Of a stretch of 64,000 nt of DNA, positions 39,761-64,000 are shown piece by piece. Positions within the stretch are counted from its first letter, which is position 1. Every line of letters starts with the position of its first letter. The DNA is taken from NCBI GenBank assembly GCA_945873955.1, contig CAMCFA010000001.1, positions 62,001 through 126,000 of the forward strand, read 5' to 3'. Source of the DNA: an uncultured Clostridia bacterium (GTDB taxonomy: Bacteria; Bacillota; Clostridia; Oscillospirales; Ruminococcaceae). The notes under the pieces were generated by a model that worked only from the letters and a program-made list of their open reading frames with translations, had not been told where the DNA came from and did no database searches. The position numbers were made by a program, and so were the translations under genes.

Positions 39761-41236
39761 TCACAGAATGATACATATCAGACCGCCGCAGCCCTCGTTG
39801 ATTATGCGCTGGATAGTTTCCTGCAATTTCATGCGCGCGTCGGCGGGCATTCTGTTCAGCTTGTTGTGAAGACCCTCATTCACCAGCTCGTGCAGCGACT
39901 TGCCGAAGATGTTGCTTTCCCAGATCTTTTTGGGATTCTCCTCGAAATCGGTGAGAAGATACGCGATAAGCTCCTCCGACTGCTTCTCGCTGCCGACTAT
40001 CGGGTTAATTTCGGTGGTGATATCCGCCGACATCATGTGAATGGACGGAGCGCTGGCTTTCAGCCGGACGCCGTACTTTCCGCCCTGCTTTATTATCTTA
40101 GGTTCTTCAAGCGTGAGTTCGTCCATTGTGGGAAGTACGATACCATAGCCTGTCGCCTCCACCTCTTCAAGGGCGCCGCGCACCCTCTCGTACTTGTTCT
40201 TTATCTGCGCAAGCTCTATCATACAGGGCATGAGGTCGCTCTCGTCGTGAAGCTCAAGCCCGGTGGTCTCACCGAGTATCTGGTAGAACAGCTCGTTTTT
40301 CAGCGTGATGTCGATTATTCCAGAACCCGTGCCGAGGTCAACGTCTTCGGGAGTTACCCTTGTCACATATTCGCAGCCGGAAATCTCCTCGGCGCAGGAC
40401 TTGATATCGCTTATGCCGCTGACCTTAGAAGCAGCCTCCTTTATGCAGCCGAAAACCTCTTTTTTCAGCCAGTGATATCTGTCTAAGGCAGTGACCCATT
40501 TGGGCATTCTCACCTTGATCTCGCTTACCGGGAACTGAAGCAGCACCTTGCCAAGCAGCTCCTTTATCTGCTCCTCGTTGATGTCAAGGCAGTTCACTGC
40601 CATGACCGGTGCGGAGTATTTCTGTTCCATTTCAGCGGCAAGGCTGCGGCTTTCCGGGGATTCGGGGTTCTGGCAGTTCAGCAGTACCACAAACGGCTTG
40701 TTGATCTCTTTCAGCTCGTTTACTATGCGTTCCTCTGCCGCCTGATACTCCTCCCGCGGGATATCAGTGATACTGCCGTCGGTAGTCACCACAATGCCTA
40801 TGGTTGAATGTTCGGTGATGACCTTGCGTGTGCCGACCTCCGCCGCCATGTTGAAGGGAACTTCCTCGTCAAACCACGGCGTCATGACCATTCGCGGAGC
40901 CTCGTTCTCAATGTAGCCTATCGCGCTGGGGACTATGTAGCCAACGCAGTCGATAAGACGGACGTTCATTTTCACGCCGTCGTCAAGCACGATACTTACC
41001 GCCTTTTCCGGCACGAATTTCGGCTCGGTGGTCATGATCGTCTTTCCGGCGGAGGACTGCGGAAGCTCGTCGTTTGCGCGTCCGCGCTGGAAGTCGTCTG
41101 TTATGTTGGGGATAACAAGAGTGTTCATCAGCCGTGTGATGAAGGTGGACTTACCGGAGCGCACAGGCCCTACGATACCCAGGTAGATGTTTCCGTCAGT
41201 CCTTCTCGCTATATCTGAATAGATTGAATTGTTCAT
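39761..41236 (-). CDS. spoIVA: Spore coat morphogenetic ATPase SpoIVA
   Basis: This protein polymerises on the forespore surface with ATP hydrolysis and forms the base of the coat. The N-terminal GTPase-like domain has Walker A GPVRSGKST (about 22-30), and the rest matches the full SpoIVA length of about 490 aa, ending in the conserved GGLICIIL needed for surface attachment. The ATG at 41236 is preferred: it has AAGGAG 7 nt upstream, while the in-frame GTG at 41242 sits almost on the ribosome site. It lies 11 bp downstream of its partner gene sipL. Confidence 0.96.
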   Translation of the reverse strand: MNNSIYSDIARRTDGNIYLGIVGPVRSGKSTFITRLMNTLVIPNITDDFQRGRANDELPQSSAGKTIMTTEPKFVPEKAVSIVLDDGVKMNVRLIDCVGYIVPSAIGYIENEAPRMVMTPWFDEEVPFNMAAEVGTRKVITEHSTIGIVVTTDGSITDIPREEYQAAEERIVNELKEINKPFVVLLNCQNPESPESRSLAAEMEQKYSAPVMAVNCLDINEEQIKELLGKVLLQFPVSEIKVRMPKWVTALDRYHWLKKEVFGCIKEAASKVSGISDIKSCAEEISGCEYVTRVTPEDVDLGTGSGIIDITLKNELFYQILGETTGLELHDESDLMPCMIELAQIKNKYERVRGALEEVEATGYGIVLPTMDELTLEEPKIIKQGGKYGVRLKASAPSIHMMSADITTEINPIVGSEKQSEELIAYLLTDFEENPKKIWESNIFGKSLHELVNEGLHNKLNRMPADARMKLQETIQRIINEGCGGLICIIL

Positions 41237-60071: not shown

Positions 60072-60151
60072 CCGGATTTGTAACCAAAATCCGGCGGGAT
60101 ACATAGAATTAAACAGCGAAAGCTTCGCCTGCTGTGCCGTGCGGCGCAGCA
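60072..60151 (+). promoter_or_regulatory. cotJ upstream region: sigma-E-like promoter and two hairpins
   Basis: CATAGAAT (60102-60109) fits a sigma-E -10 at seven of eight positions. TAACCAA 14 nt upstream (60081-60087) is a partial -35. The perfect inverted repeat CCGGATTT/AAATCCGG (60072-60079/60087-60094) surrounds the -35. A second hairpin, TGCTGTGCC/GGCGCAGCA (60130-60151), lies in the leader. Confidence 0.4.
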
Positions 60152-60174: not shown

Positions 60175-60348
60175 ATGAACAGCGGAAACGCTATGGATAT
60201 GCTTAAAAAGCCGGGATATGCATATGTTCCGGTACAGCGCATGGAAAAGGTCTATTCGCCGAACAAGGCGCTAAAGGCTGGGACTATCTTCCCGGAGCTG
60301 AACATCACTATCGACGAGTACGAGAGGGGGCTTTACAATGGCAAATAA
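60175..60348 (+). CDS. cotJA: Spore coat protein CotJA
   Basis: This 57-aa coat-associated protein has the family block YVPVQRMEKVYSPNKALKAGTIFPEL. In Bacillus the cotJABC operon is made in the mother cell under sigma-E and its products enter the inner coat. The ATG at 60175 follows AAGGGGG. Its end overlaps cotJB by 11 nt. Confidence 0.93.
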   Translation: MNSGNAMDMLKKPGYAYVPVQRMEKVYSPNKALKAGTIFPELNITIDEYERGLYNGK

Positions 60349-60676
60349 TAATATGATGTACCGCCGTCCAATGCCGCCGCAGCGACCCGAACGGCAGGCT
60401 ATGCCCTCCCAGCCGGGGAACAACGGAATGAGCTGCGAGGAGCTTCTCCGCGCCGTAGCGGAAGCGGACTTCTTTGCTACGGATCTGAAGCTGTACCTAG
60501 ACACTCACCCGGACGACACGCGGGCTATCGAGATGTTCGTGGAGGCATGCCGTCAGTACAAGGCGTGCAAGGCTGCTTTTGAGGAGTGCTGCTATCCTCT
60601 TACCGCATGCAGCGCCGGTCAGGACGGCTGTTGGGATTGGCTTGACGGCTCATGGGCGCCGTTTAGCTGCAACTGA
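60338..60676 (+). CDS. cotJB: Spore coat protein CotJB
   Basis: This 112-aa protein starts with a Met/Pro/Arg-rich segment (1-30). The CotJB domain follows: EELLRAVAEADFFATDLKLYLDTHPDDTRAIEMF and a cysteine-rich end with WDWLDGSWAPF. Its length is a little above that of the family because of the N-terminal segment. It is part of the cotJ operon, 15 bp ahead of the cotJC fragment. Confidence 0.94.
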   Translation: MANNNMMYRRPMPPQRPERQAMPSQPGNNGMSCEELLRAVAEADFFATDLKLYLDTHPDDTRAIEMFVEACRQYKACKAAFEECCYPLTACSAGQDGCWDWLDGSWAPFSCN

Positions 60677-60691
60677 AAGGGGTGAATTGGT

Positions 60692-60910
60692 ATGTTTATC
60701 TACGAAAAGAGGACGCAGATCCCGGTCTGCATAAGAAACCGCAATCCCAGACTGGCGGGGATAATACTTTCCCAGTACGGCGGTCCAGACGGGGAACTTA
60801 CCGCTTCGCTGCGTTACCTTTCCCAGCGGTTCTCCATGCCGGACAATATGGGCAAGGCTTTGCTCACCGACATAGGCACTGAGGAATACGCACATAGATG
60901 TTATCAATAG
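60692..60910 (+). pseudogene. cotJC: cotJC 5' fragment, interrupted by an integrative element
   Basis: CotJC is a manganese-catalase-fold coat protein of about 190 aa. Here residues 1-68 match the family (MFIYEK, ILSQYGGPDGELTASLRYLSQRFSMP, LLTDIGTEEYAH), then four unrelated residues and a stop follow. The break falls right after His68 (codon 60893-60895) in the GTEE-AH metal-ligand motif, so three quarters of the four-helix bundle is missing. The frame is otherwise clean, with no decay. The rest of the gene should lie at the far end of the element, beyond this window. If the element is excised in the mother cell the gene would be restored; otherwise CotJC is lost. Confidence 0.85.
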
Positions 60911-60912
60911 AA

Positions 60913-60949
60913 TACACCGCCTGCAAGCAGCAGGCGGTGTAATTTTTTT
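60913..60949. terminator. Terminator between the cotJC fragment and the recombinase
   Basis: TACACCGCCTGC (60913-60924) pairs perfectly with GCAGGCGGTGTA (60930-60941) around AAGCA, followed by TTTTTTT on the plus strand. It ends cotJ transcription and belongs to the element, not to cotJC. Confidence 0.85.
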
Positions 60950-62534
60950 ACGGAAGCGGAAGAATTTTAGGCAAAATAGTTATCTCGAAGTTGTCAAGCG
61001 AATCCGTTTTCTTGCGAGCGCGTTTCGTTTTCAGATAAACGACTTTTTCGAGAACTTCTTTCAGCATTTTGTTTTTCGCCGCCGCGTCCGGGAGTTTTGA
61101 GTACGTTTCAAGAAGATGTTCCACTTTCGGGATAACGTTAATCACATTTTCCTCTTTCGCGATTTCCACTCCGATTTGAGTATGCAGACGCTCTATGCTC
61201 TCTCTTGTCTGATTTATCCTTTCGGACACGGAGCGGGAACGTTCAAGGAAAGTATCGGTATTGTAAATTCCTTGTTCCAGCAGGTCGTGAGTCTTGGAAA
61301 GCTGCTTGTATAGCGTATCAAGTTCCGCCTCCTGCTTGGAAAGGGCTTTTTTCAGCACTTCCGATTGCTTTATGGTTGGGGAGAAGCCCTTACTCTCCCA
61401 TTCCAATTTATAGCCGTCCAGCCAGTCGCGCAGAGCAGAAAGCACACGTTCCTCGACGAGCCGGAGGTCGGAGCTTACATTTGTGCAATTTGGACGCGGG
61501 CAGAGCAATGTATCGGGATAACCCGATTGATACGGGCGACGAACCATGCTCTTGCCGCACACGCCGCAATATACAAGCCCCGCCAAAGGGTTGCAAATGC
61601 TTTTTTCGCCCGGAACAGGGCGCGTAGGATTTTTTGAAAGAAGTTCCTGCACTCGGTCGAAAACATCTTTATCGATTATGGCAGGGTGTAAGCCTTTGCA
61701 AACGATACATTCTTGACTGCGTGGACGGGACTTCTTGACTTTGCCGTCCACCATTTTCTTGACCTGTTGCCGCCAGTTCCAGCGAACCATACCAATATAG
61801 ACAGGATTTTTTAAAATGTCGCGGACGCTCGGAAGCGACCACTCGTCGCCTTTTCGAGGAGCGGATTTCATTTCATTGAGCTTTTGTGCGATAAGCCCGC
61901 AGCCGAGTCTGCGTGTAGTGCCGTCCTCCTGCGGTACGCCGTTCGCATACCACTCAAAAATCAAACGAACGACCTCTGCCTCGCTCGGAACAGGCTCAAG
62001 AGTGAAGCCCTTATCGCCTTTTATTTTTACGCGGCTGTAACCGAAAGGAGGAATATTGCCAACAAACTTCCCCTCTTTGACGGAGGCAATACGCCCGCGC
62101 TGTAAGCGGCGGTTTATCGTCATATACTCGCGGCGGGACATAAAAAGCCCGAACTCAAAGTATTCCTCGTCAAATTCATTTCCGGGGTTGTACGTCTTGG
62201 AGGGAGTGATAATCAAAGTACCGCTGAATTTGAATGTTTGGGCGACGATACCCTGGTCTGTTGTATCACCGCGAGCCAGACGCTCAACCTCCATAACGAG
62301 AACGCCAGCCCATATCCCTTGTTCCACTTCCGACAGAAGATGTTGCATAACAGGACGGGCAGCAAGGGACTCGCCCGAAACAATCTCTTTGTAAATCTCG
62401 GTTACATTTAACTGCTGACGCTTGGCGAGCTCCAGCAAGGTCCTCTCATGGCGGGCAAGAGTTTCTCCCTCTCCCCGCGCTTCTGCTTCCGCGTCAGCAC
62501 GGGATTTTCGCAGATACAAACAGTATTGTTGCAT
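60948..62534 (-). CDS. Large serine recombinase (integrase/excisionase)
   Basis: This 528-aa site-specific recombinase has a resolvase catalytic domain (about 1-150) with nucleophile Ser11 in YLRKSRAD and the arginines of LVMEVERLARGD. A Recombinase domain (about 165-265, GNIPPFGYSR) follows. A zinc ribbon (about 320-350, YCGVCGKSM and CPRPNC) and a coiled coil (about 390-470) follow, as in phage and ICE integrases. The start at 62534 is chosen for GGAGG 6 nt upstream. Its stop lies 37 bp from the broken cotJC, the usual place for the enzyme that made the insertion. Excision normally needs a directionality factor, and none is recognised in view. Confidence 0.94.
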   Translation of the reverse strand: MQQYCLYLRKSRADAEAEARGEGETLARHERTLLELAKRQQLNVTEIYKEIVSGESLAARPVMQHLLSEVEQGIWAGVLVMEVERLARGDTTDQGIVAQTFKFSGTLIITPSKTYNPGNEFDEEYFEFGLFMSRREYMTINRRLQRGRIASVKEGKFVGNIPPFGYSRVKIKGDKGFTLEPVPSEAEVVRLIFEWYANGVPQEDGTTRRLGCGLIAQKLNEMKSAPRKGDEWSLPSVRDILKNPVYIGMVRWNWRQQVKKMVDGKVKKSRPRSQECIVCKGLHPAIIDKDVFDRVQELLSKNPTRPVPGEKSICNPLAGLVYCGVCGKSMVRRPYQSGYPDTLLCPRPNCTNVSSDLRLVEERVLSALRDWLDGYKLEWESKGFSPTIKQSEVLKKALSKQEAELDTLYKQLSKTHDLLEQGIYNTDTFLERSRSVSERINQTRESIERLHTQIGVEIAKEENVINVIPKVEHLLETYSKLPDAAAKNKMLKEVLEKVVYLKTKRARKKTDSLDNFEITILPKILPLP

Positions 62535-62555
62535 AAAGACCTCCAACACAAACAA

Positions 62556-62606
62556 CTCCCTGCACCGAGCAGGGAGCAGAGTATAGAAAGAGCGTATTAT
62601 ATATTA
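62556..62606 (-). promoter_or_regulatory. Candidate sigma-E-type promoter and hairpin before the recombinase
   Basis: Minus strand: -35 TAATATA (62600-62606) fits the sigma-E -35 consensus fully; a 14-nt spacer and -10 TATACTCT (62578-62585, six of eight) follow. The perfect hairpin CTCCCTGC-TCGGT-GCAGGGAG (62556-62576) is followed by TTGTTTGTGTT and could stop transcripts coming from the repressor gene. A transcript started here at about 62571 would lack most of the first arm and escape. An overlapping TATAAT (62596-62601) could be a vegetative -10. Confidence 0.4.
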
Positions 62607-62977
62607 CAAGCCAGATGAACAGCTTGTTTTATGCCGCCGATTTTAGCGTGAAGAGAAACAGGCTCTACCAAAGGCAGACTCACGCAGGACTGCCCGCCGG
62701 AACAGGAAGCAAGAACGGACGACCGCATAATGTAGAAGTCCCAATTTTTGCATTTTTTCACGGAGAAAACGCAAATGTCGGACGGGCGCTCGGACGCAGC
62801 CCACCGAATGTTAAAAAGCGGCGGCTCTTGTTCGTCTATGTACTCGGAGGGTAACACCTCTACATACGAGCCGTCGTAAAGAAAACATGAGCCACAGCAG
62901 GAGCGGTAAACGGTATCTACACCCAACTCACGAGAAATCAGCGCCTCAGCAGCGGCAAAAAGAACAGTATCTTCCAT
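62597..62977 (-). CDS. Unknown 126-aa cysteine-rich protein of the element
   Basis: I do not recognise this protein. It has seven or so cysteines, including RSCCGSCFLYDG near residues 25-36, KKCKNW and CSGGQSC, which might bind metal. It has no signal peptide and no membrane segment. The start follows GGGGGAG and lies 2 nt after the repressor stop, so translation is coupled. Standing between repressor and recombinase it could help control either, for example as a protease-like or directionality partner, but nothing in the sequence shows this. Confidence 0.6.
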   Translation of the reverse strand: MEDTVLFAAAEALISRELGVDTVYRSCCGSCFLYDGSYVEVLPSEYIDEQEPPLFNIRWAASERPSDICVFSVKKCKNWDFYIMRSSVLASCSGGQSCVSLPLVEPVSLHAKIGGIKQAVHLACNI

Positions 62978-62979
62978 AA

Positions 62980-63552
62980 TTACTCCCCCTTATCTCCCAG
63001 GGCTACGCGCAAATCTTCTTCAAGCAAACGGTCGAGCAAAGACTCAACGTCGTATTTGAACTTATTCTGTGCGGCTAAGACGTCGGAAATTGAGAAAGCG
63101 CTATCGGGCTTCTCGTACCGAGCGGCTATTCCCTTAATGTATTCTCTGGACTCGGCTATCAGACTGAACAGGTCAAGCAGGATATTGAGCTTTTCGGAAC
63201 TGTCGGAAAGAATGCCGTCGCGGAGAATATCATAAAACGCGTTGTACGCTTTTACCACCGTATCACGCTGGGGAGCAGGCAGAGCAAGATACGCCCCCTT
63301 TATACGGGAATTAGCTTGAAAAAGAGCGTCGTCACGATTCCCCGCGCTATTTGAAAGACCGACAAGGTAGTCGGCAGATACGCCAAAAAACTCCGCGAAC
63401 TCGCAGAGCGTATCGAAATCCGGCTCTTTGCCGCCGGTCTCATATCCGGAGATAGTCGAGCGCTTTTTGTTAAGCGTTTCAGCCAACTGCGCCTGCGTTA
63501 ATCTTTTTTTGTTGCGCTGTTCCGCAAAACGCGCGGAGAAAGCGACAGACAT
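62980..63552 (-). CDS. CI-like helix-turn-helix repressor
   Basis: This 190-aa XRE-family regulator has an N-terminal helix-turn-helix (about 8-62, LTQAQLAETLNKKRSTISGYETGGKEPDFDTL, with the FGVSADYLVG end typical of phage repressors). A helical C-terminal half of unknown fold carries no LexA-type Ser/Lys protease motif, so induction would not be by RecA self-cleavage. It is divergent from the small XRE gene, as in phage or ICE immunity regions. Confidence 0.88.
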   Translation of the reverse strand: MSVAFSARFAEQRNKKRLTQAQLAETLNKKRSTISGYETGGKEPDFDTLCEFAEFFGVSADYLVGLSNSAGNRDDALFQANSRIKGAYLALPAPQRDTVVKAYNAFYDILRDGILSDSSEKLNILLDLFSLIAESREYIKGIAARYEKPDSAFSISDVLAAQNKFKYDVESLLDRLLEEDLRVALGDKGE

Positions 63553-63593
63553 AAAACCACCCTCTCAAACGCCACACGAAAGGAGGCGAAATA

Positions 63594-63830
63594 ATGCGAA
63601 TCAGATTAAAAGCCCTGCGTACCGCCCACGGATTTTCGCAGTACACATTTGCGGACGCGCTGGGAGTATCCCGCAGCCACTACTCGCAGATTGAGGCAGG
63701 CGAAAAGACACCCAGCCTGCCACTCGCTAGGAAAATCAAGAGCGTACTTGCTTACTCAAGCGACGACATTTTCGATAATGATTCGGCTTGCTTTTCCAAG
63801 CGCGGAGCGCCCAAAAAATTCAAAAAATAG
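63594..63830 (+). CDS. Small Cro-like helix-turn-helix regulator
   Basis: This 78-aa XRE-family protein consists of a helix-turn-helix (about 4-58, HGFSQYTFADALGVSRSHYSQIEAGEKTPSLPLA) and a basic tail. The site AAAGGAGG precedes the ATG. Only 41 bp separate it from the repressor start, all taken up by the two ribosome sites, so both promoters must lie within the opposite gene. A terminator follows the stop. Confidence 0.85.
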   Translation: MRIRLKALRTAHGFSQYTFADALGVSRSHYSQIEAGEKTPSLPLARKIKSVLAYSSDDIFDNDSACFSKRGAPKKFKK

Positions 63831-63842
63831 TGCTATGAACCG

Positions 63843-63872
63843 CCCTCGTTGTCAGCAACGGGGGCTATTTTT
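63843..63872 (+). terminator. Terminator of the Cro-like gene
   Basis: CCCTCGTTG (63843-63851) pairs with CAACGGGGG (63856-63864) around TCAG, followed by TATTTTTT. Confidence 0.75.
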
Positions 63873-64000
63873 TCGCTGTTTGGCTTTGCGAGCAGACGGC
63901 TCAAGACCTTTAGACTCAATCAACATTTTGCGAACACCGAACTGCTCGTATTCTTCGGCTTTTTCAACAATGACCTCGGCAGGCGGGATTTCTTCACAGC
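63852..64000 (-). CDS. C-terminal part of a leftward gene of the element
   Basis: An open frame enters from the right edge and ends with TGA at 63854-63852, inside the terminator hairpin of the Cro-like gene. The 48 visible residues are charged and end basic (EKAEEYEQFGVRKMLIES, then RKAKQRKNSPRC). The codon pattern looks real, but no family is recognised and the start lies outside the window. Confidence 0.45.
   Translation of the reverse strand, partial: CEEIPPAEVIVEKAEEYEQFGVRKMLIESKGLEPSARKAKQRKNSPRC

Follow-up and report, generated by a model that had tools for sequence, protein, structure and literature searches.

A prophage in the spore-coat gene cotJC: a likely developmental excision system with recurrent counterparts across Clostridia

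Introduction

Only a few genes of spore-forming bacteria are known to be rearranged during development. We report here on a further candidate, the spore-coat gene cotJC, which is split by a prophage in an uncultured Clostridia bacterium of the family Ruminococcaceae (assembly GCA_945873955.1). The stretch of DNA analysed, called the window below, comprises 64,000 bp of a 422,758-bp contig (CAMCFA010000001.1, here C1) in a draft genome of 3.47 Mb and 172 contigs; the window is C1:62001-126000, and a window position equals the C1 coordinate minus 62000. A sequence-only reading of the window had proposed an excision system of the skin type in cotJC. The split targets named in the available text of PMC5595907, PMC4191935 and PMC10747680 are sigK, spsM, spoVFB, spoVR, gerE and yabG.

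In the skin element of Clostridioides difficile, a phage-like element with a large serine recombinase (CD1231) interrupts the mother-cell gene sigK. As far as the available text of PMC5025042 goes, its excision requires the directionality factor CD1234, which is under the control of sigma-E and SpoIIID; the recombinase is constitutive, with a sigma-A promoter. A small, separate directionality factor under control of the sigma-E/SpoIIID type is also the candidate arrangement in the cotJC elements. In contrast, sigK encodes a regulator and cotJC a structural coat enzyme, and excision has been shown for skin and is only predicted for cotJC. SPbeta in spsM of Bacillus subtilis (SprA/SprB) is likewise a complete prophage splitting a spore-envelope gene (PMC4191935, in the part available), although the host gene differs and the SPBc2 integrase YokA is only distantly related to the window's recombinase (28% identity, far lower than among cotJC elements). 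In gerE of Bacillus cereus, the gin element lacks phage genes and encodes serine recombinases as well as a small helper protein, GirX; it is comparable to the cotJC elements of 3-7 kb, but it measures 28.6 kb, has three recombinases and occupies another gene (PMC5595907, available sections). The elements yin (yabG, Clostridium botulinum), vfbin (spoVFB) and vrin (spoVR) also lie inside sporulation genes (PMC10747680 and PMC4191935, available sections), again other host genes, and yin is, according to its authors, unique to one strain.

Prophages adjoining a Mn-catalase/CotJC-like gene are described for C. difficile phi027 and phiCDKH01 (available text of PMC11222575, PMC12122855 and PMC8270841). 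Whether phi027 represents a split CotJC gene already in print was considered, and the idea was rejected: the neighbouring 678-bp open reading frame (ORF) lies downstream of attR, attP is unlike the GA-core site described below, and what that text documents is adjacency only. For phiCDKH01 the neighbouring loci alone are named there. Searches of open-licence PubMed Central papers, a scope outside which most subscription papers and preprints fall, brought up no account of cotJC being split or excised among the entries and passages returned. In the main text of a serine-recombinase survey (PMC10083194) the word catalase is absent, and "sporulation" occurs in the reference list only.

We propose that the serine integrase of a temperate phage inserted the phage into the Glu65 codon of cotJC, at the dinucleotide GA. 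In the sporulating mother cell sigma-E (with SpoIIID) would turn on a 66-aa companion protein of the element, which as a directionality factor would flip the integrase from integration to excision. With its gene rejoined, the mother cell would make CotJC for the spore coat, and the forespore chromosome would retain the prophage. A gene needed, as we expect of cotJC, by none but a cell about to die may be a landing site that does no harm, and this would account for its use by many integrase lineages. We give this reading as a whole a probability of roughly three in four. Its structural part (split gene, core, prophage insert) is close to certain and the recurrence of the split is strong; developmental excision, as predicted from sequence, is likely, at about the same odds as the whole.

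Results and Discussion

The split gene and its crossover point

The sequence-only reading had described cotJA and cotJB as intact and cotJC as truncated, with a recombinase gene 37 bp beyond, and this description holds. cotJA (60175..60348, plus strand; PF11007, E 3.9e-14) and cotJB (60338..60676, plus strand; PF12652, E 1.1e-20) are intact, the cotJC ORF (60692-60910) matches Mn_catalase (PF05067) over profile positions 1-69 only, and the recombinase ORF occupies 60948-62555, its end 37 bp past the stop of the truncated cotJC ORF. The 3' part of the gene is present at the far end of the element, where that reading had placed it. A whole-genome search with PF05067 returned two matches on the same contig and strand, at profile positions 1-69 (C1:122692-122895) and 62-206 (C1:180968-181366); a second, intact cotJC, the alternative considered earlier, was not found by this search in the draft genome.

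The 5' part (60692..60885, plus strand, profile 1-69) runs through the GA core of the Glu65 codon, and the 3' part lies beyond the window on the same strand (C1:180982-181348; 118982-119348 in the window frame; PF05067), 58,096 bp away on one contig. Joined at the core, they form a complete in-frame cotJC of 186 codons reading ...TDIGTEE-LAHLEIIGS..., and both the CotJC/Mn catalase family match and the metal-ligand motifs are present in the joined protein. In an alignment with Mn catalase 1jku, Glu35, Glu65, His68 and Glu136 of CotJC correspond to Glu35, Glu66, His69 and Glu148, residues which we take to be metal ligands. From this alignment Glu65 is expected to be a manganese ligand.

For mapping of the core, left and right junctions were compared codon by codon in the 38 genomes with both, the window's included. 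At codon 65 the two sides agree at G in 38/38 genomes and at A in 37/38; in codons 62, 64, 67 and 68 single conserved positions agree in 36 or 37 of the 38, and GA is the sole adjacent pair. The comparison thus places the crossover core most likely in the GA of the Glu65 codon (window 60884-60885 and C1:180980-180981). The left attachment site, attL (60854..60915, plus strand), has GTTATCAA in its element arm, and attR, beyond the window, has the arm TTGATAAC. The short direct repeat anticipated for both junctions exists as a common GA/GAA core in direct orientation, flanked by symmetric attP arms: the consensus element arms are inverted repeats centred on GA, TTGATAACC ... GGTAC / GTACC ... 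GGTTATCAA. In the predicted attP of the window's element 30/50 positions are palindromic, against a maximum of 28 among 8143 sampled 50-mers of the element.

The earlier placement of the break after His68 stood in part. Homology does reach the His68 codon, but the crossover most likely lies three codons earlier, and a join at that CAT codon, our own first placement, was dropped after the 38-genome comparison. The left-side codons 66-68 (TAC GCA CAT, Tyr-Ala-His) are element-derived, and joining substitutes CTT GCT CAT (Leu-Ala-His). Tyr66 is therefore the element's residue, and the Leu66-Ala-His restored on joining is the family consensus.

Within the genus, 37/43 genomes have a Mn_catalase match, and the only clear split is that of the window. 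An apparent second case, G002 (G and L numbers denote our genomes and loci), with an in-frame insertion of 93 codons at the same site, consists of a scaffold gap of N and a 23-bp duplication and was not counted. It illustrates how an assembly or binning artefact might join a phage to a cotJC fragment. Such an origin is barely credible for the window, where a single contig of 422,758 bp bears both halves and their att structures match, the more so as the base-level junction is identical in 38 genomes and the gene is likewise split in a single-contig genome. In this genome (G123, 3.14 Mb) about 157 kb, an SPbeta-like size, separate the cotJC halves (C1:2541692-2698414).

Recurrence of the split

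Relatives of the recombinase were collected as the best 80 of 398 genomic loci and 80 of 115 viral-contig loci, 160 in all. A cotJC half adjoins 50 of the 80 kept genomic relatives (the 5' half in 21, the 3' half in 22, both in seven) and neither half the other 30. Among the 80 kept viral-contig loci, the 3' half occurs in 10 at E 1e-3 or better and more weakly in two more, and the 5' half in none.

Independently of the recombinase, 147 genomes were drawn evenly across the class, 105 of which match Mn catalase. Complementary cotJC pieces occur in at least 19 of these 105, as counted from the matches listed (G000, G094, G098, G105, G121, G123, G132, G133, G160, G161, G162, G181, G182, G195, G206, G208, G217, G232 and G236; the pieces of G161 leave a gap, G206 is without a listed first piece, and G217 is the same as G092, Tissierella praeacuta). 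A single such piece was found in eight more genomes (G106, G109, G114, G120, G157, G158, G212, G227). Left out of the count were G150 and G186, whose adjoining pieces are probably frameshifts, G226, where the contig ends, and G149, with one piece. For 11 of the 19 genomes the stretches were retrieved, and the pieces agree with the listing. Isolates with a split cotJC include A. transvaalensis ATCC 700919 (Alkaliphilus), T. praeacuta DSM 18095, Lachnotalea glycerini DSM 28816 and Clostridium methylpentosum DSM 5476. One structural gene is thus split in about one fifth of the match-bearing class genomes sampled. The splits fall at several different codons, the recombinases involved are distant relatives of one another, and the elements extend from minimal ones to complete phages. 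The skin-type design is supported by in-frame joining and by the splitting of the same site in dozens of genomes; its developmental part is what we infer. Some CotJC proteins annotated as "missing" or "truncated" are probably split genes.

Viral contigs capture both forms of one kind of element. L107-L109 read from phage arm through core into the cotJC 3' half, and L110 and L112, about 86-91% identical to L109 in aligned pieces, read from phage arm through core into the other phage arm, an intact attP. L107-L112 come from different contigs and samples, so that they document both element forms and not excision within one culture. Several contigs end at cotJC attachment codons: G026:C205 (L188) exactly at the Glu65 codon, L111 at the GA core and G022:C195 (L189) at about codon 26. 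A sample with both occupied and empty sites would be expected to give such ends.

Coding capacity of the split gene

When joined at the core, cotJC has an open frame of 170-235 codons in 34/39 genomes, codons ahead of a missing first piece being taken as present. The exceptions are G044, G071 and G087, which have further pieces, and G063 and G084, with no stop within the 200 codons read; G045, among the 34, reads GREALAH. Over 190 codons the split genes of G067 and Alkaliphilus transvaalensis differ at 0.021 nonsynonymous (dN) and 1.09 synonymous (dS) changes per site, a dN/dS of 0.019. Other split-gene pairs are mostly near saturation and constitute weak evidence.

These data bear on the view that cotJC is dead in split genomes and its halves are young remnants. 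The insertion breaks the active site, and between the window's cotJC and the intact gene of 16 genus mates dN is 0.09-0.13 (dS saturated in 13), nonsynonymous change at which a recent loss would leave little trace. A dead gene is nevertheless very improbable given open frames in 34/39 joined genes from very different genomes, cotJC genes in three or four pieces that still code, and the companion promoter described below.

Sites, orientations and recombinases

The Glu65 codon is not the only point of entry into cotJC. A second site at the QYGGPDGE motif (codons 30-31) has both ends in G044, G050, G066, G071, G084, G085 and G087, and a third at AAEQKAR (codon 136) in G071 and G087, with matching pieces in G132, G181 and G232. 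Another site lies near codon 130 in G044, and a site at codons 60-62 is used in G094, G121, G160, G182 and G195; recombinases were seen in four of these stretches, with 23-25% identity to that of the window. Two codon-30 recombinases compared are 23-26% identical. Pieces on separate contigs were grouped as one gene by complementarity alone; as read at the junctions, cotJC is in at least three pieces in G044, G050, G071, G084, G085 and G087, and in four in G044, G071 and G087.

On a quick tree of 159 recombinase rows, the orientation of the element in cotJC, i.e. whether the recombinase lies next to the 5' or the 3' half, requires at least 14 changes. Palindromy of the core was rejected as the cause of both orientations, since GA is not palindromic. 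As to vertical inheritance of a split cotJC, the evidence points both ways: G075 and G076 share 79% of recombinase, 70% of companion and 84% of CotJC amino acids; G067 and G076 share 97% of CotJC, yet the recombinase of G067 is distant (57-58%).

From complete prophage to minimal element

The prophage begins at 60886 and occupies the window to its end (60886..64000), continuing to C1:180981, 58,096 bp in all. Its large serine recombinase (60948..62555, minus strand; PF07508, PF00239, PF13408), with Resolvase, Recombinase and Zn-ribbon domains, faces the junction with its stop codon and ends 62 bp from the core; the likely start is the ATG at 62534, after GGAGG. An identity with XisF, the excision recombinase of the fdxN element (NF041201), was rejected at 90.1 bits against a curated cut-off of 375. 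A 126-aa ORF without a Pfam family (62597..62977, minus strand) separates the recombinase from a helix-turn-helix (XRE-type) repressor-like protein (62980..63552, minus strand; PF01381, E 1e-14). Searches of part of the ORFs against PHROGs and Pfam recovered terminase (TerL), portal, head morphogenesis, head protease and capsid genes, and further tail sheath, tape measure, baseplate, RecT, C-5 methylase, reverse transcriptase and repressor genes. Judged by this gene content, the element is a tailed temperate phage of the myovirus type.

The prophage also carries a diversity-generating retroelement, beyond the window (C1:171405-174465; L005:11406-14466), with a reverse transcriptase of phrog_1423. 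Its template/variable repeat pair measures 111 nt, and all 20 differences fall at template adenines.

A complete phage in a gene could also be just that, and the main rival to developmental excision is that ordinary temperate phages use cotJC as a safe site with no sporulation control, so that spores lack CotJC and rejoining happens by rare induction. The packaging, head, tail and recombination genes of the window's element are what this predicts, and one kind of phage occurs both integrated and with an intact attP. Among the 160 loci plus the window, moreover, 52 recombinases abut unidentified genes and 24 lie at a contig edge, so that many relatives may use other sites.

The size range of the elements is less easily accommodated by that rival. 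On single contigs, cotJC elements measure 3.2 (G067), 4.7 (Tissierella praeacuta), 5.4, 6.3, 6.4 and 7.2 kb (A. transvaalensis), and larger ones reach about 62 kb, besides the approximately 157 kb of G123. The small elements (3.2-7.2 kb) keep a recombinase at the junction and the split gene. Their cargo includes a nucleotidyltransferase-HepT pair, an amidase with a SPOR domain, a Na/alanine symporter with a pyridoxal-phosphate enzyme, AgrB and a sensor kinase. No head, tail or packaging family was found by Pfam or PHROGs among the 18 non-recombinase ORFs scanned (nine against Pfam, ten against PHROGs, one in both). An element hardly able to form particles that has kept its recombinase and the intact halves of the split gene argues for host use. 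The in-frame joining in 34/39 genomes and the dN/dS of 0.019 in one pair point the same way, although a recent insertion could equally explain intact halves.

N-acetylmuramoyl-L-alanine amidases are an enzyme kind that also serves mother-cell lysis. In the 4.7-kb element of T. praeacuta such an amidase with a SPOR domain (L221:5142-5906) matches phage endolysin families, and some small elements may therefore be phage relics.

A companion protein and its promoter

A family of proteins of about 60 aa accompanies the recombinase in 110/160 loci (N 18/23, C 21/39, other 53/74, contig-edge 18/24), on the opposite strand in all 70 matches listed. The member in the window's element has 66 aa and lies beyond the window (C1:127468-127668). 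We regard this companion as a candidate directionality factor. The 126-aa ORF at 62597-62977 was considered for the same role and rejected: it had no relative in the loci then retrieved, and the companion family fits better.

Upstream of the companions of the cotJC group a common KMATAGGACA is followed by [AC]ATAnnnT, 15 bp after KMATAGG. This we take to be a sigma-E promoter form, with an overlapping box that presumably fits the B. subtilis SpoIIID consensus. The pattern AGGACA-N10-16-[AC]ATA precedes the companion in 17/35 non-redundant cotJC loci against 1/59 others, and 100 dinucleotide shuffles gave means of 0.17 (maximum 2, cotJC) and 0.25 (maximum 3, others). With near-copies retained the counts are 19/38 and 4/69, and three of the four are L110-L112, the attP form of the cotJC phage. 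The pattern was picked after viewing the sequences, and its controls are the other loci and the shuffles rather than a blind test. It occurs in 0/136 recombinase upstreams. The strict SpoIIID consensus alone is weaker (8/35; shuffle mean 2.1, maximum 6). The 70 kb around the window's element contain a single instance of the strict combined pattern, at C1:127416, which is 52 bp ahead of the start of the companion gene.

Other target genes

The recombinases of the 160 loci and the window lie beside cotJC in 63 cases, asparagine synthetase in 11 (L040, L056, L060, L066, L076, L085, L086, L089, L097, L105, L144) and a LysM-GH18 gene (YaaH/SleL-like) in 11 (L078, L079, L083, L103, L143, L162, L163, L168, L173, L176, L178), the remainder being the unidentified and contig-edge neighbours mentioned above. 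In asparagine synthetase the cut lies at the same fixed point (profile about 127-131) in 8/8 genomes checked, with both halves in seven. The LysM-GH18 gene is cut near GH18 position 182, with both halves in 4/5 genomes checked and, in two genomes, about 50 kb apart on one contig. Both targets are, we presume, sporulation genes. When a GTACA variant is included, the companion motif is found in 20/35 cotJC, 6/7 asparagine synthetase, 5/7 GH18, 6/30 other and 6/15 edge loci, with shuffle means below 0.5.

Weighing developmental excision

The companion's mother-cell-type promoter is associated with particular targets, namely cotJC, asparagine synthetase and LysM-GH18 genes, which phages free of sporulation control would not lead one to expect. 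The ordinary-phage account, our main rival, explains the window taken alone equally well but the minimal elements and the target-linked promoter less easily, and we hold it to be unlikely.

Several observations nonetheless weigh against excision of the element in the mother cell. The element of the window has the look of a complete phage, and it may be no more than an ordinary lysogen. Of the 50 split-copy genomes, 17 have another long Mn-catalase match, so that the split copy may be dispensable there, and most of the genomes are draft metagenome assemblies. The role of the companion is assigned through guilt by association, and 18/35 cotJC-adjacent companions are without the motif, including that of the minimal 3.2-kb element (L057/L220). 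With generic models of sigma-E and sigma-K promoters, the region before the companion scores above shuffles whether or not the locus is a cotJC one, and the GGACA form alone separates the two groups. Finally, the upstream region of the recombinase in cotJC loci shows no sporulation-specific signal; a sporulation promoter there was considered and rejected as unspecific, since sigma-E, sigma-K and sigma-A scores are all raised.

Beyond the single locus, we consider it reasonably probable that across Clostridia cotJC, together with a small number of other spore-type genes, serves as a standing docking site. Integrase lineages in large number, those of full phages as well as those of 3-kb elements, would split these genes at highly conserved codons (in cotJC, within metal-ligand motifs), with up to three elements per gene, and small directionality factors of one family, tied to sigma-E/SpoIIID, would remove the elements in the mother cell. 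If so, programmed genome editing in the mother cell would be common in the class and not a curiosity of sigK; splits of the same gene in many relatives suggest that editing of their own DNA may be routine in cells that are making spores. Why phages choose mother-cell genes, how a prophage turns into a switch of the host and how integrase direction is controlled become testable questions, and the loci provide a large set of paired integrases, att sites and candidate directionality factors that should be useful as tools.

Sporulation context of the window

Upstream of the cotJ operon, CATAGAAT at 60102-60109 was judged by eye only to be a sigma-E-like signal. The window also contains a match to the ATPase domain of spoIVA (40529..41230, minus strand; C1:102529-103230), so that the host looks like a spore former.

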